Shown here one piece after another: positions 24,260 to 35,076 of a stretch of 64,000 nucleotides of DNA. The position numbers and the translations under genes were made by a program. The number at the start of each line of letters is the position of its first letter. Position 1 is the stretch's first letter. Origin of the DNA: Sabellastarte sp. h YS-2021 (Eukaryota > Annelida > Polychaeta > Sabellida > Sabellidae); assembly GCA_964017235.1 (NCBI GenBank), contig OZ024935.1, positions 93,495,207-93,559,206 of the forward strand. The letters are read 5' to 3'. A model generated the notes under the pieces. It did not search any database. It was given only the letters and a program-made list of their open reading frames with translations, and was not told where the DNA came from.

Positions 24260-25606
24260 TTACTCGCGTATGTGCTGGGCTGCGACCACTGGTCCTAAAT
24301 GGTACAGGTCAGCATCAGCCCATGCTACATCCTTCAAATAAAATTGGGTGAAGGTATTGTGCGACTTCCAGTGGCAGGCTGAGAGGATCTGGTCCAAGGA
24401 CACACCTCCTTGAAAAGCCTTAGAAGCTGCAAAGGCCCGCACATCATGGGCTCTGACCTGATGTAATTGTTGTGCATCCTCATTGGACAATTGATAGCAC
24501 AACAAGATGGTTTGTTTAATCCAAGAAGAAATCGTAGCAGGAGCGATGTCCTTATTGAAGTTCTTCTTGAAAGACACAAAGACCAACTGTTTGCCGGAAC
24601 GGAGGTCTTTGGTCTTGTCCAGGTAATAACGCAAAGCCCGAACTGGACATAAGGTTCTATCCTCCTTGAGAGACTTATCCAACGTAGGGGCCAAGGCCGG
24701 AATAATTACCGGAGCTACTGAAGAAGGCCCTTCTTTAGCCAACTGATTCTTGGACAAGAAACAAGGAGAAGGGAATAAAGAAACATTAGCCCAATCTTCC
24801 TGATGTCTAATGTTCCTGTGTACCCATGCATGAATCTCACTCCTTCTTTTGCCCGAGCCCAAAGCCAGGAGAAACATCGTTTTGAAGGTAAGATGTTTCA
24901 GAGACGCCTTTCGAAGGGGTTCAAAGGGGGACTGGGTTAATTGATGCAAGACCAGAGACAGATTCCAGCTAGGGACTCCTCGAAGACCCTTGGGTTTATC
25001 TCTATGGAAACTGTCTAGCAAGCGGGTAAGGTTTTCGTCTTTACCAAAATTAACCTTGTCACAACCAATTTTGTCGGCTATAGCAGTTCTATAGCCATCT
25101 ATGGTGATAGGTTGAAGATTTTTCTCCTTGAAAAGGAATAGGAGAAATTCCGCTACCTGAGTTAAAGAAGGTGACCCGAAGTCCACCTTGTGTGACTCGC
25201 ACCATTTGACAAATATGGACCACTTCGATTCATAGATGGCTCTGGTTGATTGTCTTTGAGGAGCCTCAATTCTCGTTGCCACTTCATCAGAGAATCCTTG
25301 TGCCTGTATGCTAGAGGCTCTAGGAGCCAGGCGTGGAGGTTGAGCCCTAGGAGATCTCTGTGGGGACACTGATTGAACGGTTGGGTCAGCAGGTTCTCCA
25401 CGTTTGGAAGGGAGAGAGGAATCTGAACAGACATGCTGACTAGATCCCAGAACCAAGGCATGTTGGGCCACCCTGGAGCAATCAGAACCAACCTGTGAAC
25501 TCCCTGATCTAGGATCTTGGACACCACCTTGCCCAAAAGAGACACAGGAGGGAACGCGTAGGCATCCATATTCTCCCAATTCAGGCTGAGAGCATCTACT
25601 CTCCAT
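24260..25606 (-). CDS. DIRS tyrosine recombinase ORF
   Basis: A 448-residue open frame. The catalytic domain of a phage-integrase-type tyrosine recombinase is recognisable in its C-terminal two thirds. Arg lies in GSGKRRSE (about residues 250-257), HDVR is at 387-390, His in the CHW motif at 412, and the nucleophile Tyr in QFYL at 423. A core-binding-like helical region precedes it (about 115-210). The first ~115 residues are low-complexity and overlap the end of the RT frame by about 445 nt, so true translation may begin later or by frameshifting. The enzyme is expected to integrate a circular DNA copy. All key residues are present, so it could be active. Confidence 0.88.
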   Translation of the reverse strand: MESRCSQPELGEYGCLRVPSCVSFGQGGVQDPRSGSSQVGSDCSRVAQHALVLGSSQHVCSDSSLPSKRGEPADPTVQSVSPQRSPRAQPPRLAPRASSIQAQGFSDEVATRIEAPQRQSTRAIYESKWSIFVKWCESHKVDFGSPSLTQVAEFLLFLFKEKNLQPITIDGYRTAIADKIGCDKVNFGKDENLTRLLDSFHRDKPKGLRGVPSWNLSLVLHQLTQSPFEPLRKASLKHLTFKTMFLLALGSGKRRSEIHAWVHRNIRHQEDWANVSLFPSPCFLSKNQLAKEGPSSVAPVIIPALAPTLDKSLKEDRTLCPVRALRYYLDKTKDLRSGKQLVFVSFKKNFNKDIAPATISSWIKQTILLCYQLSNEDAQQLHQVRAHDVRAFAASKAFQGGVSLDQILSACHWKSHNTFTQFYLKDVAWADADLYHLGPVVAAQHIRE

Positions 25607-27453
25607 GCCTGTGGATCGGGTACTGGGGACACAAACTTGGGTAGTTTGTGATTATACCTTGTTGCAAAGAGATCCACTCGGGGAGTGTGCCACCTGGCAC
25701 ATAAGTGGTCGAAGACTTCCTGCAGGAGGGACCATTCTGTCTGAATAACCTGAGTGCTCCTGGACAATTTGTCTGCTATCACATTCAGCCTTCCCGGAAT
25801 GTGCCTGGCCCTTAGAACTATCTGTCTGCGATTGCACCAGGAAAGCAGTCTCCAGAGGAGGGCACAAAGTGAGCCTGATCTCATACCCCCCTCCTTGTTG
25901 ATGTATGAGACAACCGTTGTGTTGTCCGTGGCTATCAAAATGATCTGGCCCCAACACTGTTGCTCGAACTTCTTGAGGGCCAGAAGGACCGCCTTTAGCT
26001 CGAGAAAGTTTATGTGCAACTGGCTTTCTGAGTCCGACCAAACTCCTTTTGCCGTGTGGTCTCCTAAGTGCGCGCCCCAACCTTCGTTTGAGGCGTCGGT
26101 AAACAACTGCAGAGCATGTTGTAGAGGATGAAGAGGTTGGCCGCTGAGCACATTGTTTTCGTCCAGCCACCACTGCAGATGAGGGTATAGAGATCTGGGA
26201 AGAGGAATCTCCTTCTCTAGTACCTCTGGCACGTGCCAGTGATTCTTCAAGTGCCACTGAATCGGTCTCATGTGAAGGCGCCCCGAAACCACCTGTTTCT
26301 CTGTGGCTGTCAACAAACCTATGAGAGACATGAACTCTCGGACAGAACAATGGTCTCTGTTCATTAGCATCTTTATTTTTTGAGTTAGGGTTTGCCACCT
26401 CTCCTGAGTCGGCTTCACTAGACCCTTGGAGAGGTCGAAATGATAACCGACAAAGTTGAACTCCTGTTGGGGAACAAGTTCCGACTTTTGCAAATTGACT
26501 AACCATCCCAACTGCTGACACAGAGCCATCAGGGTCCGCGTTTGGTTCACACAAGCCTCCCGAAAGGGCGCTCGAAGCAACCAGTCGTCTAGGTACTGGT
26601 GGATCCTTATACCCCTGGACTGGGCCATCAATTTCACCTCCTTCACCACCTTTGTGAATTCCAAAGGAGCCGTCGCTAGGCCGAACGGCAGAGCCCTGAA
26701 CTGGAAGGTTTGACCGTGCAGGTGAAACCGGAGATACTTCCTCGACCTTGGGTTGATGGGAATGTGGAAATAGGCATCGCTGAAATCCAGCGATGTGACC
26801 CATTCGCCTTTTTGAAGGGATAGCCGGATGGTCTCCGGAGTTTCCATTTTGAAGGTTTCCGAGTGGAGGAAAAGATTGAGTTTGCTCAAATCCAAGATTG
26901 GACGCCATTTGTTGTTTGGTTTGGGAACTATGAACAGCCGGTTGTAAAAGGCCAGAGAAGCCCGAACCACTACTTTTTCTACGGCCTGTTTTGTAATCAG
27001 GGACTGCAATGCCTCCTTCAAAACTTGTTTCTGCGAGGGTTGGCGTATCCGCTGATTATCAGAGGACACCTGGTCAATGGGGGCCTCATCTTGAAAGGGA
27101 GGTTGTAACCGTCCTTCAAGATGGAGACTACCCGAGGATTTGAACCCAGGCTGAGCCACGTTTCCCAGAACCTGTGCAACCTGCATCCTACAGGAGGATT
27201 TTCTGCAACACTGTGGACATTTGGTACATGAGGGACAGAACGACAAGGAGAGACAAAAGAAGCACTTTCGACATGTTTTATTTCTGTCTGACAAAGATCG
27301 GGACTTAGGCCTTTCTTTTGCGGCTGCCCGGGACCGACAACAATAGGAACAGGAATTACAGCAGTTCTTGAGTATACAGTCTTTGAAATGTTTTGAGGGC
27401 TGATGTTTTGACCCACTATCTTTGGAATTATTTGGTTGTGTGGGTTTGTACAA
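25162..27453 (-). CDS. DIRS reverse transcriptase / RNase H polyprotein
   Basis: A 763-residue frame starting 6 nt after the Gag stop. Residues 26-88 are cysteine-rich (many C-x2-C pairs), suggesting a zinc-binding segment. RT motifs follow: KWRPILDLSKLN (~182), SLDFSDAYFHIPI (~221), FRALPFGLATAP (~252) and the catalytic YLDD at 287-290. RNase H follows with FTDAS (~451), ELKAVLLALK (~485), TDNTT (~509) and RHIPGRLNVIADKLSR (~550). The last part has VDLFATRYNHKLPKFVSP and AYAFPP, a segment conserved in DIRS polyproteins in the place where a methyltransferase-like domain is described; a clear DPPY motif is not seen. Intact and likely functional. Confidence 0.9.
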   Translation of the reverse strand: MYKPTQPNNSKDSGSKHQPSKHFKDCILKNCCNSCSYCCRSRAAAKERPKSRSLSDRNKTCRKCFFCLSLSFCPSCTKCPQCCRKSSCRMQVAQVLGNVAQPGFKSSGSLHLEGRLQPPFQDEAPIDQVSSDNQRIRQPSQKQVLKEALQSLITKQAVEKVVVRASLAFYNRLFIVPKPNNKWRPILDLSKLNLFLHSETFKMETPETIRLSLQKGEWVTSLDFSDAYFHIPINPRSRKYLRFHLHGQTFQFRALPFGLATAPLEFTKVVKEVKLMAQSRGIRIHQYLDDWLLRAPFREACVNQTRTLMALCQQLGWLVNLQKSELVPQQEFNFVGYHFDLSKGLVKPTQERWQTLTQKIKMLMNRDHCSVREFMSLIGLLTATEKQVVSGRLHMRPIQWHLKNHWHVPEVLEKEIPLPRSLYPHLQWWLDENNVLSGQPLHPLQHALQLFTDASNEGWGAHLGDHTAKGVWSDSESQLHINFLELKAVLLALKKFEQQCWGQIILIATDNTTVVSYINKEGGMRSGSLCALLWRLLSWCNRRQIVLRARHIPGRLNVIADKLSRSTQVIQTEWSLLQEVFDHLCARWHTPRVDLFATRYNHKLPKFVSPVPDPQAWRVDALSLNWENMDAYAFPPVSLLGKVVSKILDQGVHRLVLIAPGWPNMPWFWDLVSMSVQIPLSLPNVENLLTQPFNQCPHRDLLGLNLHAWLLEPLAYRHKDSLMKWQRELRLLKDNQPEPSMNRSGPYLSNGASHTRWTSGHLL

Positions 27454-27459
27454 TGACTG

Positions 27460-29643
27460 TCATTTATAATTTTTGCCACCCCGGGCATACTTGGAAAAAC
27501 GGTGGTTAGTAGAACCACGCCCACGGCCACGACCTCGTGACCCAAACTGTTGCCAAGGTTGTTGAGGAGCAGATGACGGCTGAACCATGATCTTAGCCTC
27601 CTTCTTCTCATACGGTTTATAGCGATACTTGGTCTTCTGTTGGTGCTGGGGACCAACTCGAGACTGGACCGACACATGTTGTGTCTCAAACTTGTTGATA
27701 TCTTGTTCCGCGACATTCAAGGCCGCGTCGGGAAATAACCCATATCCAAAAAGAGCAGCATTCCTCAGTTCATTCCAAGTGTCCATCTTCATACCGAGAC
27801 GAACATGATCTAAATAAGAGTCCCGACGCATCAGAATGAAGTTCCCCAGCTGCACAAAAAGGCTATCAGCCAGGTGCTGTAGAGCTGTCCCAAGAGAGAC
27901 AGATACATTCTGGTGGAAAGCACATAAATCCCTTAACTCCTTAAGTGCTTCAGACACCTCCTTGGCTGACTTGCCCTTACTGAGATGAGTATGTAGGAAA
28001 GTTATGTGATGTGCCATCTGATCTTGAATCTCGCTAGTGCATCTGCTGAAACCAGCTGCATGGTTCACTGTGTAAGTACCCTCTCGGGCGCACCTTTCCC
28101 ATCTGCGTAGTACTTCTTGCGATATGGGACGAGACACGGGACCTGTTGCGAGATATGCAGCTGGTTTGACAATTCTTGAGAATTGAGCATTTAGTTTTGC
28201 CTCAGAACCATGCCAGTTGAACAGCTTTCTACCTGGTCGCTGGGGACCATCTGTCTTTAACTTATGCATGGGATACCATTTATCCTGTGGTTTAGGGGTG
28301 CGTATGAATGGGTCAGTATGCAAACCACCAGCTTCTTGACTTCGGGAAGGGTAACCCTCAGCTACAGTCAGATTAATCCTCTCCAGCTTCTGACAGAGCC
28401 AATCGTCTGCTGGCATGGCTACTGACACCTTTGAACTTGTCTTCGGATTTTTTCCACGCCACGGATTGTTGGACTTATCCGGGTCACTGTACTCAAACTC
28501 AAAGTCTGGGATAAAGTTCCAGCCCATAAAGGCCCTGATGGAACGAACTGTTTCCCTGTAACTCATTTCTTCATTCTTTTCTGGTTTATCAGTGTCTGAT
28601 TCAGAAAGTTCACCATCCTCGCTATCCAAAACATCTGGTGATGTATGATCCCTATCCACAACATCTGTTGATGTATGATCCCCAAAGAGTGGTTCGTCTG
28701 AAGCCACAGGCAAGACATCTGTTAAGGGGTGTTCAACATTGGACATATCATCTGAGCCACCAGCAGAAGCAAGGTTTCTCATAAACGGCTCCCCAGCCGG
28801 TGCAGCCGGTTCCGGACCGGTAAAAGATCCATCCACAACCGGAACCGGTTCCTTGGGTACAAAGGTGTCAGTTTGGTATGCCCTGACCAGACCGGTCATC
28901 TCCCCGACCGGTACCGGTTTAGCTTGTTGAAGTGCAGTGTCAGAGGGCTTTTTCTGTACCGGACCGGTATTTTCCTCAACCGGAACCGGTTTTACTTTGG
29001 AAGATTTATGATGAGAAGACTTGTGCTTCTTCTTTGAATCTTTCTTGCCATCTGATCCTGTACTAGCCTGTACTGCCGGAAACCGCACCGGACCGGTGGT
29101 TCGGGCAGAGGCAGGATCTATGAATGGCTGATCAGAAACCGGTGGGTTTGAAACCTGAACCGGTACTTTGGGGGTAGCAAATATATTGCCTCTTGATAAG
29201 AGTGCTTCAAAATGAGAGAATTTCTCATCTAGCTGGTCACTTAATTTGTCAAAATCTTTTTTGGAAACAAAATCTGAAGAACTCACATTATCGCTACCCC
29301 CAGGGAGGTCCTGCGCATGCGCACTGTCATCTTCAGAAATCGTCTGCTGAGCATGCGCAGTACTAGCTGGCTGTTGAGAAGAATTAACTGGAGACAGCAC
29401 AGTTACATCTCGTGGTGACACTAGCAAACCCGCTTTCTTGTCCTTGCGAATTTGATACTGTGGAGTGGCCAGCATCTCACGTTGAATTGCTGTAAAATTG
29501 TCACAAATCTTGCATATCGCACCTCCCACAATGCAGGGATCTTTACCCAGACCTTTGTCTCGACAACGAGCACACTTCTCATGCATATCAAATCCAGCCA
29601 TCTTATGGCCGCACGATCCCCGCCTTTGTCCTGGTGAATCCAT
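27460..29643 (-). CDS. DIRS Gag-like ORF
   Basis: A 727-residue frame. Near the N terminus (residues 11-50) there is a Cys/His cluster, HEKCARCRDK and later CKICDNF, as in Gag-like proteins of animal DIRS elements. The middle (about 190-350) is low-complexity, with repeated Pro-Val and Thr-Gly-Pro-Val words encoded by ACCGGT-rich DNA. The region about 360-640 is more ordered and probably forms the structural part. The C terminus is RG-rich (GRGRGRG, then YARGGKNYK), suggesting RNA binding. The first ATG after the right ITR was taken as the start. Gag identity is inferred from position and these features. Confidence 0.75.
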   Translation of the reverse strand: MDSPGQRRGSCGHKMAGFDMHEKCARCRDKGLGKDPCIVGGAICKICDNFTAIQREMLATPQYQIRKDKKAGLLVSPRDVTVLSPVNSSQQPASTAHAQQTISEDDSAHAQDLPGGSDNVSSSDFVSKKDFDKLSDQLDEKFSHFEALLSRGNIFATPKVPVQVSNPPVSDQPFIDPASARTTGPVRFPAVQASTGSDGKKDSKKKHKSSHHKSSKVKPVPVEENTGPVQKKPSDTALQQAKPVPVGEMTGLVRAYQTDTFVPKEPVPVVDGSFTGPEPAAPAGEPFMRNLASAGGSDDMSNVEHPLTDVLPVASDEPLFGDHTSTDVVDRDHTSPDVLDSEDGELSESDTDKPEKNEEMSYRETVRSIRAFMGWNFIPDFEFEYSDPDKSNNPWRGKNPKTSSKVSVAMPADDWLCQKLERINLTVAEGYPSRSQEAGGLHTDPFIRTPKPQDKWYPMHKLKTDGPQRPGRKLFNWHGSEAKLNAQFSRIVKPAAYLATGPVSRPISQEVLRRWERCAREGTYTVNHAAGFSRCTSEIQDQMAHHITFLHTHLSKGKSAKEVSEALKELRDLCAFHQNVSVSLGTALQHLADSLFVQLGNFILMRRDSYLDHVRLGMKMDTWNELRNAALFGYGLFPDAALNVAEQDINKFETQHVSVQSRVGPQHQQKTKYRYKPYEKKEAKIMVQPSSAPQQPWQQFGSRGRGRGRGSTNHRFSKYARGGKNYK

Positions 29644-30532: not shown

Positions 30533-30549
30533 AGAGCCTGTAGCACCAA
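30533..30549 (+). repeat. left terminal inverted repeat of the TTAA transposon
   Basis: AGAGCCTGTAGCACCAA immediately follows TTAA and pairs with 35060-35076, with one mismatch in the first 16 positions. Confidence 0.85.
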
Positions 30550-30822
30550 TTTTGACATATCCCTTTTTCTGTTTTTCTATAAAATACATTCCCAGAGAAA
30601 TCAATTTACACTAATAGCAGTTACAACAAGCCAATGTTTATACCACTATTTCACTTTTATCGCACAAATTTCTCTCCCTCTTGGAAGGAGAAAAACTCAA
30701 GGCCAAAAGTCCAAAGTTTGTGTGTACTACGTAATACGATGGCAAGAGATTTCCACTTGCATAAAAAAACACACTGTAACTGTACAGTTTTCTTATACTT
30801 ATTTGCTGGTGTGTAAAATTTA

Positions 30823-31810
30823 ATGATGTCTTCTGATGATGATGATACCTTTATACATTTATCATGCACAAATTCAGATGTAGGTATCAGTGAAAATGAA
30901 TCAGATTGTAGTGATAACAATAGTGACAAGGCAATAAACATTGTACCTTATAACTTTGAACCATATCTGTCTGATGATGATGACAGAAATGTTGAAAGTG
31001 AAGAATTGGATAGAAATGACAGTGGTGGTGTTGTTAGTGATATTCAGAAATTACAAAACACTGAATGGTAAGCAAACCTTTTTCAAAAGTTAAGAGTATT
31101 TTGACTTTATTAATAAATCATACAATTTCAAAAACAACATCATACATGTGGGCTAATAATGTCACCCCTTATATGTTTGTAACATTACTTTCTTCACACT
31201 CAAAACCATTTCTTTCCTGAATGTGTAACACAATGATATTTACTTTAGTATTATCAGGACTTTTGTATAGAAATATTCAAAAAAAAAATAAAAAAATGAA
31301 TTTAAGTTTGTTTACAACCTCCATCATATAAAGTTTGAGAACTGACCATTTATAATGTCTGGTAAAGGGTGACCAATTGAAGAAGGAAGCTACAAAATGA
31401 CTTAAAGGTAGAAATTTCTTATTGTAGGTGTAAATGCTTCAACTGTCACACTTCCTTTAGTAGAAGAATGTGTTTGTTGCTGTGAAATAGATCAAGTGTC
31501 AGATAAAAAGGGTGACTATCCATGCATCATTGGTCACCCAGGATTCACTACAGTTTACCTTGATCCATGGGTATTACAAACTGCCTATTATGCATACAAA
31601 CAGCAGTATGGTCAGAATAAAGATCAACCTCTCAATCAGAGATATCGCTATATTGCTTATAGACAATTAGCAAGATGGTGTTGGGGATTCTTGGGCAAAG
31701 AAATAAGAGTGGCACTTCCATCTTGTGCTGTGAACAGAATAAGGGAAGAATTTCCTTCTCCTGATTATGAAGGCTTTAAACCATATCCACAGTTACCAGA
31801 TTTAAACTAG
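30823..31810 (+). pseudogene. P2X7 C-terminal (ballast) domain-like gene, two exons, frameshifted
   Basis: Exon 1 (30823-31067) encodes an acidic leader rich in Ser/Asp, then NIVPYNFEPYL, and ends in a TGG split by GTAAGC. Exon 2 starts at 31428 after TTATTGTAG. It continues in frame with WCKCFNCHT, then a one-base shift is needed to reach the frame with EECVCCCE, CIIGHPGF, LQTAYYAYKQQYG, YIAYRQLARWCW, LPSCAVNRIREEFPSP and YEGFKPYP. That order is the zinc-binding ballast domain of P2X7 receptors, here without any channel part. In the uncorrected frame exon 2 stops after about 20 codons. The cause is either a decayed copy or a sequence error. Function in transposition is unknown. Confidence 0.75.
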
Positions 31811-32200
31811 AAGACTAAAACACATTTGTGCTGTATATATATGGAAATCTGTGACTTCATAATACACGTGAATAACATTACCATATTTGTATAACATTGA
31901 CTTTTGATTTTGCTATGAATGTTCCTGGCTGTTTCACAACTTCAGCCGTTTCAAAACGGCCAAGTTATTTTATTTGGGCATTTACTTGGTTTCAAAACGG
32001 CTTGCCCATTTCAAATCTAACAGATCTAAGTAAATTAAGCATGTTGGAAAATGGCAAGTAACATGAATCACTACTGTTTATGTGTAACACACATAGAAAT
32101 ATATCTTGGAACACTTAGAAGAGCTGTATGTATGGATCCATGTCCAAAGTTATGTAAATGAAAATCACTTTGCAAGTAGCTTTACCAAATTTAAAATTCT
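31811..32200. other. shared 3' region between the two transposon genes
   Basis: A non-coding stretch between the convergent genes. It contains a small inverted repeat (TTTCAAAACGGCCAAGT with ACTTGGTTTCAAAACGGC) near 31950-32005 and AT-rich polyadenylation-like sequence on both strands. Confidence 0.45.
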
Positions 32201-34477
32201 TCATTTCATGTGCTTGTATCTTGATGCATGCTCTTCAATAGCTTTTTCTTTGTCAGGATGTTCAAAGTTCGCACACAGATTAGGAGGTAGTGTAATCGCA
32301 GAGGCCACTTGTTTCCTTGCTTCAGATGGTTTTTGGCATTCCTTCTCCACTTGTGTCCAAAGATTGTCAACGTAATCAAATGTTTGATTCTTCAAAACTT
32401 TTCTAACAATATACCCTCCCTTTTTATACTTCGGATATTTTATCTGAAATACTGGCTCCCCACTGTGTGTATGCATTTGTTGTCTGCCTGCATTTTCATT
32501 ATAATGGATTGCAGCTAATTTTACCCTACATTCCATACCAACTGGTGTGAACGAAAACATTTTTGGTGCAAACTGGTTTAGTAGACTGTGAAAGGCTTCA
32601 AGGTTCCATGTTTGTTCGTCTCCTGAAAGTTTAGAAATGTCGCTTAAAAGGGCCTTTTTTAGACAAATTTCTTCAATTTGAAATGAAGCCTTAGATCCTG
32701 ACTTTATCCACTTTTTCCTTGCTTCTCTGCCTACTAGTTCTTCATGGGCACATTTTGAAAATAGCTCATTGCTGTGATTATGCTTATTAATCACATGGTT
32801 AACAACAGATGACCATTTTGCAACAATTAACTCTCCATAACCTGGTTCTATTGAAACTGCAGACCAGTAGAGGTGATTAATAATACTTTGAATCCATGGT
32901 CGAATGTCTTCACAGTCCTTTAATTTGGCTGCAGACTCCAATTTTTTGCCAACCGATTTGGCCACATGCCAAATATCATAAACATGGAGTATTGCACTGT
33001 GGTTTTCTCTTATCCATTTAGCTATAGATCTGTGCCTATCTGTCACAATTTTGACAATATTTAACCACTCTATCAGATGATTCAGAGATTTTTGAAGTCC
33101 AGCAAGTTCCATGTGATAACTTCCACCTACTTCAGTGCTTGTTATTAATTGAATGTCTAAAATACAGTTCCAGTTAAGCTCCATGCATGTATAAATGTCA
33201 TACTTTGCACAGTGACCCATGCTATCTGCACGCCCATCTCCTCCTATTGTAATACCATCTCCTCTTGCCCTTAAAAGGCCTATTAGATTTTGCTGTTGCT
33301 CATTCCATATTTTATTTATTGCTGGAAAGAGTAATTCTTTTTGATGGCGGAAAAAAGTGCTTTTTTCAATGCAAGCAAGTCTCATGTGATTAAAAAGTCT
33401 GAGCACCTTGGAGAACATTGAGCTACTGAACAATACTGCAGCTAAAAGAAGTATATTTCCAGCTGGATAGTCTCTCACGAAAGGTTGGGCCTTCCATTCT
33501 GTTGTTTTACCACAACTTTCACAAAAGAGTTTAACAGTTAACAGGGTACCCAAATTTACAGGACTGCGAAGGGAAATTATATCATGGCTACCACATGATG
33601 GACAATGGGTCCATGAAAGCAGGACCTGTAGTGCAGACCAAAAGACAATAAACTTTGGCTGATCTAAGATTCTTGAATTTTCTACACCGGGTTGTTCTTC
33701 AAAAGAAGGAATTTCTTCTCTGTCTACTTCATTTTCACTGTCTGGAGATGGCAAATACTCTGACAGTATTTCAACTTGTTCATCTACCGACTGACTATAT
33801 GAGCTTTCAAAACTTTCATCTGAGCTATGGATTGTTCCATCACCAACCTGAACACATTGATCTATCTGAGTTCTTATACTTTCAGTCTGTGTTGCCTTTT
33901 TATGTCCGCCTTTGATAACCACTTGAACTTTTTTATTTTTTTTCTCCATAAGTGTTTGAGTAGATGATGTCACACAACCACTTTTTTCACTATTATCATC
34001 AACAAATGTATCCATATCTGATGTGAAACTATTATCTTCAGTATCACTTAATTCTGTCATCTGGGATACAGTATGGCTGCTCAAAGCATCTTGAATAGCC
34101 CTTTGTCTTTCCCTTTTGTCATAAGCTGTACGTCGTTTCTTAACTGCAACTTCTTCAGATGTTTTACCCCTGCTGAACAGAGTAGGAACTGCACTGGGTT
34201 TGAGCTTTTTGACTGTTGACACAGAAAATCCCATTTCCTTCATCATGACTGGCCGAATTTCATAACAGTCTGGAGTAAAATGATCACTACAAACATAAGC
34301 ATATTGTGAAGCTGGACCGTTCCATTCAGCCCGAGTCTTCTGGACTTGCTTCCCCCATTCATCATATCTTTTCAATTCTGCTTCATCTTTCCCTTTGTTT
34401 GGGAAAGAATGAAATGTCATATCTCTGTGCTTGTCTGACCGATTGGTACAATTAGCTGCCACACAAGTCTTTCCCAT
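32201..34477 (-). CDS. THAP-domain DDE transposase (Kolobok type)
   Basis: A 758-residue single-exon frame. Residues 1-101 form a THAP zinc finger: C5, C10, C63, H66 and the closing AVPTLF box at 96-101. This is the DNA-binding part, expected to recognise the transposon ends. Residues 105-270 are low-complexity and acidic. A second zinc-binding pair, CPSCGS (292) and CESCG (319), follows. The catalytic core has candidate acidic residues in GGDGRADS (~414), VTDRHRSIAKW (~480), VYDIWHVAKS (~501) and NLEAFHSLLNQFAPK (~627). The C terminus is basic and may bind DNA or zinc. No internal stop, so the copy may encode active enzyme. The assignment of catalytic residues is inference from motif context. 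Confidence 0.88.
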   Translation of the reverse strand: MGKTCVAANCTNRSDKHRDMTFHSFPNKGKDEAELKRYDEWGKQVQKTRAEWNGPASQYAYVCSDHFTPDCYEIRPVMMKEMGFSVSTVKKLKPSAVPTLFSRGKTSEEVAVKKRRTAYDKRERQRAIQDALSSHTVSQMTELSDTEDNSFTSDMDTFVDDNSEKSGCVTSSTQTLMEKKNKKVQVVIKGGHKKATQTESIRTQIDQCVQVGDGTIHSSDESFESSYSQSVDEQVEILSEYLPSPDSENEVDREEIPSFEEQPGVENSRILDQPKFIVFWSALQVLLSWTHCPSCGSHDIISLRSPVNLGTLLTVKLFCESCGKTTEWKAQPFVRDYPAGNILLLAAVLFSSSMFSKVLRLFNHMRLACIEKSTFFRHQKELLFPAINKIWNEQQQNLIGLLRARGDGITIGGDGRADSMGHCAKYDIYTCMELNWNCILDIQLITSTEVGGSYHMELAGLQKSLNHLIEWLNIVKIVTDRHRSIAKWIRENHSAILHVYDIWHVAKSVGKKLESAAKLKDCEDIRPWIQSIINHLYWSAVSIEPGYGELIVAKWSSVVNHVINKHNHSNELFSKCAHEELVGREARKKWIKSGSKASFQIEEICLKKALLSDISKLSGDEQTWNLEAFHSLLNQFAPKMFSFTPVGMECRVKLAAIHYNENAGRQQMHTHSGEPVFQIKYPKYKKGGYIVRKVLKNQTFDYVDNLWTQVEKECQKPSEARKQVASAITLPPNLCANFEHPDKEKAIEEHASRYKHMK

Positions 34478-35059
34478 GATAGTAAGCAGTTAAGGATGCT
34501 GATATATACACTTTATATACATGTGAATGTATATGTTCACATTTCAAGCCTTTAAATACAGCTTTTGTTAACAATTATTTATATTTATACAATTTGTTTG
34601 TAAGCAGTTATTAATGTAATTGATAATATTTTTCTTTGTAACTATTTCATATACACTGTCACTATTTTTACAAGTATATATAAACAAAACTTACATTTGT
34701 TTCTGTGTGGTTTAATTTCCAAATTATAAATGGTATAACAAACACATTTTTGAATATCTGTTGGTAATTTAATAAAGTGAAATAGCTTTCAATGTAAATT
34801 AAAACAATTTGTGTGCACAGAAGAAAATGTAATAGTACAGCTCATGGTACTTATAACCAGGATATAAATGGCCCTGAGAAAGCAATCCATTGAGTGACGT
34901 CACTGCTTTCTGTTAACATGGATGTTTATGTTTGGAAGCAGTGTGGAGAGAGCTGCACAAAGAGGGAAATATCTCCCGTATAACATGGCAGTTTTCAAAA
35001 TAGTGTATATAGGTGTTTTATGTGTGTGATTTTTTAACTGCTTGTGTTAAGTTGTGTTG

Positions 35060-35076
35060 GTGGTGCTATAGGCTCT
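35060..35076 (-). repeat. right terminal inverted repeat of the TTAA transposon
   Basis: Read on the minus strand it is AGAGCCTATAGCACCAC, and it is followed outward by the TTAA duplication at 35077-35080. The transposase start lies about 580 bp inward. Confidence 0.85.

Follow-up and report, generated by a model that had tools for sequence, protein, structure and literature searches.

A THAP transposase and a P2X7 ballast-family gene share TTAA-bounded elements in a Sabellastarte genome

Why does a transposon in an annelid genome carry a gene that resembles the C-terminal ballast domain of the P2X7 receptor, and what might that gene do there? The question is raised by a 4544-bp element (positions 30533–35076) in the window analyzed here, a 64,000-nucleotide stretch of Sabellastarte sp. 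h YS-2021 (GenBank assembly GCA_964017235.1, contig OZ024935.1, positions 93,495,207 to 93,559,206 of the forward strand). The element is enclosed by TTAA at both sides and holds two convergent genes, one for a THAP-domain transposase and one of the ballast family. We conclude that it very probably belongs to the Kolobok DNA transposons, and among these to the Kol0 type, which combines a transposase with the gene KolX.

A preliminary description of the window had singled out this pairing as possibly new. The pairing is real and recurs across the genome, but it is already in the literature: Kojima and Bao (2022; PMC9587614) describe Kol0 elements as encoding a transposase and KolX. In their account, KolX resembles region 476–595 of P2X7 and has seven conserved cysteines, P2X7 likely came about when a P2X4-like gene fused with KolX, Nanor is likely a domesticated KolX, and the hosts of Kol0 include vertebrates, annelids, cnidarians, and sponges. 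In the literature searched, the word KolX appears in that paper alone, and no further paper on a link between KolX or Kolobok and the P2X7 ballast was apparent by title. What the present analysis adds is the set of genome copies, the two-exon structure, the pairing counts, and the constraint.

Borders, transposase, and copies of the element

The element could be delimited to the base (Table 1). Its terminal inverted repeats are identical at 15 of 16 positions, with one mismatch, and its termini, AGAGCC...GGCTCT, have the form 5'-RR...YY-3'. Ends of the 5'-RR type are the Kolobok rule in PMC9587614, where they are contrasted with those of piggyBac. The TTAA duplications and inverted ends reported in the preliminary description are exact.

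Table 1. Features of the element, in window coordinates (KolX exons and intron predicted from the alignment of copies)
Feature	Position	Strand	Remarks
Left target-site duplication TTAA	30529..30532	.	also present in seven close copies
Left terminal inverted repeat AGAGCCTGTAGCACCA	30533..30548	+	5'-RR start
KolX exon 1	30823..31067	+	Asp/Glu-rich N-terminal part (by eye); conserved donor site
KolX intron GT...AG	31068..31427	+	GT donor and AG acceptor in 9/9 aligned copies
KolX exon 2, ballast domain (PF20478)	31428..31810	+	2-bp deletion after 31443 in window copy
Intergenic deletion junction (~540–580 bp), window copy	32043..32044	.	2-nt microhomology GT
Kolobok transposase, 758 residues, intact frame	32201..34477	-	THAP, D/D/E, DxxH, H2CH motifs
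Right terminal inverted repeat AGAGCCTATAGCACCA	35061..35076	-
Right target-site duplication TTAA	35077..35080	.

The transposase matches Pfam THAP (PF05485) with E=1.7e-15 and 58 bits, and the DDE motifs that had been claimed for it can be located. The THAP signature consists of C5, C10, C63, and H66, the last read directly off the transposase sequence, together with an AVPTLF box that has Leu where the AVPTIF box has Ile. The acidic triad, assigned by motif and not by structure, is formed by D414 or D418, D480, and E627; a DxxH motif (DIWH, 501–504) lies between the second Asp and the Glu, and an H2CH finger is made up of H561, H566, C576, and H578. The THAP C2CH pattern and AVPTIF box are as defined in PMC6004289, and the other motifs follow the descriptions in PMC6004289 and PMC9587614. 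The same motifs recur in homologous pieces of 33–64% identity from elsewhere in the genome, each of them partial (the L035 piece stops before the Glu motif). Besides THAP, the transposase has weak Pfam matches to MULE and a zinc ribbon. When the genome was searched with the window transposase, the window copy was the sole full-length match (1–758) without an internal stop; of the next three, one has a single stop (C4), one is missing the first 18 residues and has two stops (C6), and one ends at residue 728 (C18).

These features agree with the published description of Kol0 elements of the Kolobok-1_XT type, which share TTAA targets, 5'-RR ends, a DDE transposase with DxxH and a zinc finger, and a KolX with seven cysteines (PMC9587614); a THAP domain is likewise described for the Koloboks of Xenopus (PMC6004289). 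The window copy differs from published Kol0 in that its KolX is damaged.

A search of the 1.786-Gb genome recovered seven close copies (L009–L013, L015, and L016) with block identities of 94.3–98.5% (a single 401-bp block in L013 reaches 99.8%), and two more diverged ones, L014 at ~88–91% and L017 at ~85%. TTAA is found at the left end of all seven close copies and beside a complete right end in six; in L011, which has lost internal sequence close to that end, GGCTCT is directly followed by TTAA. The outer flanks differ among the seven, so they represent separate insertions. The element is therefore not a chance assembly of parts, and it has been mobile in the past. The KolX region lies inside these borders in every close copy (copies at ~94–98% identity).

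The window copy has itself lost DNA. A segment of ~540–580 bp between the two genes is present in all seven close copies and absent here, and aligned blocks overlap by GT at the junction in six copies (in L012 the second block begins 28 bp later). We considered an insertion in the other copies and rejected it, as all seven hold the segment and its edges show no target duplication by eye, only the GT microhomology; these observations indicate that the segment was deleted from the window copy.

A transposase with matching ends and no ballast gene would have counted against a fixed pairing. No close copy has this form, and only decayed ones approach it: L017, whose DNA matches the KolX region without a P2RX7_C match, and L018, a short remnant that matches part of the transposase region and not KolX exon 2. 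In L019 and L020 only the KolX side is matched within the stretches examined. Many shorter elements have only the outer ends in common with the element. One of these, L022, is 1437 bp long with TTAA on both sides and 77–79% identity over 578 + 361 bp. A search with the first 108 bp gave 181 candidates; of the 40 scored, all match, 8 at 93–100% and 32 at 79–84%. Separately, 25 places match approximately the first 578 bp at 76–78% and resemble miniature inverted-repeat transposable elements or internally deleted copies, with both ends checked in L022 only.

The KolX gene

The ballast open reading frame (ORF) of the window (31496–31810, plus strand) scores 51.5 bits on Pfam P2RX7_C (PF20478), for which the cut-off is 23.5, and a slightly longer frame (31427–31807) matches solved P2X7 chains (four distinct sequences, best E=2.3e-05). 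The preliminary description was right to place this gene in the P2X7 ballast family without a channel; the ORF it identified, however, is only part of exon 2 of a two-exon gene whose frame is broken in the window. The exon-intron model is predicted from an alignment of the window with eight copies. The first ATG in the other copies lies at the position corresponding to 30826, and the predicted splice restores a protein reading ...TEWCKCFNC..., the onset of the ballast cysteine pattern. Spliced in this way, KolX of L015 reaches 73.4 bits against P2RX7_C.

The ballast gene of the window copy is broken, because a 2-bp deletion shifts the frame. The two bases are present in all eight aligned copies, with one of them changed in L011. 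As a result, CKCFNC, which holds the first three cysteines, is out of frame with the remainder, and a stop follows at codon 100. The spliced frame is open throughout in five of the nine copies (L011, L012, L013, L015, and L016), although in L011 a Tyr replaces the third cysteine. The other broken copies are L009, which has an in-frame stop together with the loss of 1 bp in exon 1; L010, whose exon 1 carries an insert of ~230 bp; and L014, in which exon 1 has an insert and exon 2 a 4-bp deletion. By eye, the L010 insert (C11:91.918 Mb) resembles a tRNA-derived short interspersed nuclear element. The damage is distributed differently in the transposase: the window copy combines an intact transposase with a broken KolX, and in the five copies with an open KolX the transposase has stops, is in pieces, or extends only to residue 728 (L012).

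Among 11 aligned ballast proteins of the genome, C1, C3, C6, C17, C18, C33, and C100 (L029 numbering) show little or no variation. At C17, L026 carries Arg instead, and the window sequence was entered from 31457 on and hence without its first three cysteines. The second gene of the Kol0 type, a KolX with seven cysteines, is thus present in the copies with an open frame. Likeness to the P2X7 ballast (PF20478; chains 6u9v and 9e3m) extends to the sequence match, the cysteine pattern, and the AYR..W and LPSC...IR.EFP blocks; unlike P2X7, KolX has no P2X channel and lies within a transposon. No match to PF00864, the P2X channel family, was found in the proteins scanned. An AlphaFold2 model of the window KolX piece from single sequence has a mean predicted local distance difference test score of 43.8, too low to inform on structure.

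Pairing across the genome, constraint, and related families

If KolX belongs with the transposase, then the two should be found together beyond the window's own family. The match sets comprised 58 Pfam P2RX7_C matches, 70 pieces found with the window transposase, and 95 found with the transposase of a second family described below; matching was exon by exon, and repeat counts are lower bounds. With the window transposase set, 32 of the 58 ballast matches lie no more than 6 kb from a transposase cluster, all 32 in convergent orientation. Both transposase sets together pair 38 of the 58, again without exception convergent, compared with ~0.03 pairs expected by chance. Adding 28 further ballast matches brings the count to 47 of 86 paired within 8 kb (47/47 convergent); seen from the transposase side, 47 of 74 clusters have a ballast partner. 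The pairing of KolX and transposase is genuine and recurrent across this genome.

Constraint on the two genes was compared as the proportions of non-synonymous (pN) and synonymous (pS) differences; because comparisons between families are saturated at synonymous sites, no ratio of substitution rates is given. Four comparisons of KolX between families gave pS of 0.76–0.89 and pN of 0.14–0.37, and two of the transposase gave pS of 0.77–0.81 and pN of 0.21–0.24. For the one family pair in which both genes were compared, the window's and that of L028, pN is 0.23 and pS 0.78 for KolX, next to pN of 0.21 and 0.24 and pS of 0.77 and 0.81 for the transposase. This likeness indicates that the KolX protein has been kept by selection about as strictly as the transposase.

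Several related families accompany that of the window. The second family (L044–L050) has a distant transposase, that of L046 being 40% identical to the window's, and on the KolX side its elements start with TTAA followed by AGGGGATAGGC in six of seven loci and by AGGGGATATGC in L044. Its copies are 97–99.9% identical, and among the matches listed seven places have a transposase frame of 645–666 codons with no stops; with near-identical copies and stop-free frames, this family may, judging from sequence, be young or active. KolX copies at L031–L033 and L039 lie in a repeat of ~3.4 kb that is 97–100% identical on four contigs and possibly reflects a recent burst; the transposase beside L032 is seemingly split by introns. 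The best ballast matches of the genome, L023, L024, and L025 (C3:4.18 Mb, C3:172.0 Mb, and C6:45.4 Mb), are single open frames of 154–172 residues in a repeat that spans 3.4 kb or more and is 97–99.6% identical.

P2X channel genes lie apart from all of this. PF00864 matches fall at six exon-sized places, all at C7:29.69–29.79 Mb. The closest ballast match on C7, at 30720352, is separated from the nearest P2X match by ~0.93 Mb and from the center of the P2X region by 0.98 Mb. At the sensitivity of the PF00864 and ballast searches, no fusion of the P2X7 type is apparent in the genome.

The element also has a neighbor in the window. Three long minus-strand ORFs occupy 24260–29643, 0.9 kb to its left: a gag-like frame with no Pfam match (27460–29643), a reverse transcriptase/RNase H frame (25162–27453; RVT_1, E=4.8e-22), and a frame with a weak tyrosine-recombinase match below the cut-off (24260–25606; E=0.00072). 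Together they resemble a DIRS-type retrotransposon.

Origin and possible role of KolX

What could KolX do for such an element? By analogy with its family, the transposase would bind the inverted ends through its THAP domain, excise the element with an RNase-H-type D, D, E active site, and paste it into TTAA. KolX, with an acidic N-terminal part and a predicted two-zinc cysteine domain, would act together with the transposase and could do so in trans on damaged copies. With its broken KolX and internal deletion, the window copy would depend on another copy to supply KolX, should the protein be required at all. We tentatively suggest that KolX assists transposition, or its regulation, as an accessory protein. 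To the possibility that the Kol0 transposase requires KolX as a zinc-binding partner, retained with it across distant families in strictly convergent layout, we give similar, less than even, weight.

Several points weigh against this reading. Any help from KolX in transposition is something that we infer. Within a family, the one pair compared, L029 and L030, shows zero synonymous and a few non-synonymous differences, too few to show constraint. Moreover, a ballast partner went undetected for 27 of 74 transposase clusters, as did a transposase for 39 of 86 ballast matches. Some of these are fragments or intron-bearing genes, and some elements may truly be single-gene. Six unpaired loci were examined more closely. 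Downstream of L032 (C6:26379219), five transposase blocks lie colinear and convergent in the stretch L053, and convergent transposase pieces are also present at L043; L023 has a single weak piece (32%, E=1.5e-5) ~3 kb downstream, in the stretch L054; at L026, L027, and L040 no transposase piece was found within 1.5-kb flanks. The unpaired status is thus partly a limit of the search and partly unexplained.

The alternative that survives best is that KolX is a captured host ballast gene, now cargo or a regulator of host chromatin and dispensable for transposition. Ballast (ZCD) genes are described across Metazoa, with an ancestral synteny to two markers from sponge to molluscs (PMC7016195), which speaks for an old host ballast gene; the word stem "transpos" is absent from the main text of that paper. 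Stand-alone ZCD proteins and Nanor, as described there, resemble KolX in being ballast proteins with a short N-terminal part, and Nanor differs in being described as a host gene, whereas KolX lies inside a transposon. A few ballast ORFs in this genome (L023–L027) have no clear transposase alongside, and the transposase clusters without a detected partner would also fit a dispensable gene. The invariably convergent pairs, however, include transposases down to ~38% identity, and KolX is constrained like the transposase; layout and constraint together indicate long co-inheritance of the two genes. We therefore regard a dispensable captured gene as unlikely, more so than an accessory role.

A piggyBac transposon, from the other TTAA superfamily, carrying a ballast gene would explain the TTAA duplication, but this is highly improbable: the ends start 5'-AG in accord with the Kolobok rule, the transposase has THAP and Kolobok motifs and matched no piggyBac model at E<=1 in the Pfam scan, and the piggyBac proteins concerned are described in PMC9587614 as lacking most of the seven cysteines that are conserved here. 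We found no evidence that the ballast ORF is a chance neighbor or belongs to an older, unrelated locus hit by a transposon; this reading can be set aside as having next to no likelihood, since KolX lies inside the TTAA borders of the window element and of seven copies at different sites and its pairing with the transposase recurs in the genome.

It is striking, though already published, that a transposon gene is linked to the tail of an immune receptor that has been studied in depth. If KolX is indeed a partner of the Kol0 transposase, the tail of P2X7 would be a repurposed transposition factor, and its zinc- and nucleotide-binding properties could be studied in a transposon setting. In the Sabellastarte genome, several Kolobok families hold both genes, some copies have an open KolX frame, and the gene structure is clear; this makes it a practical place to ask what KolX does.

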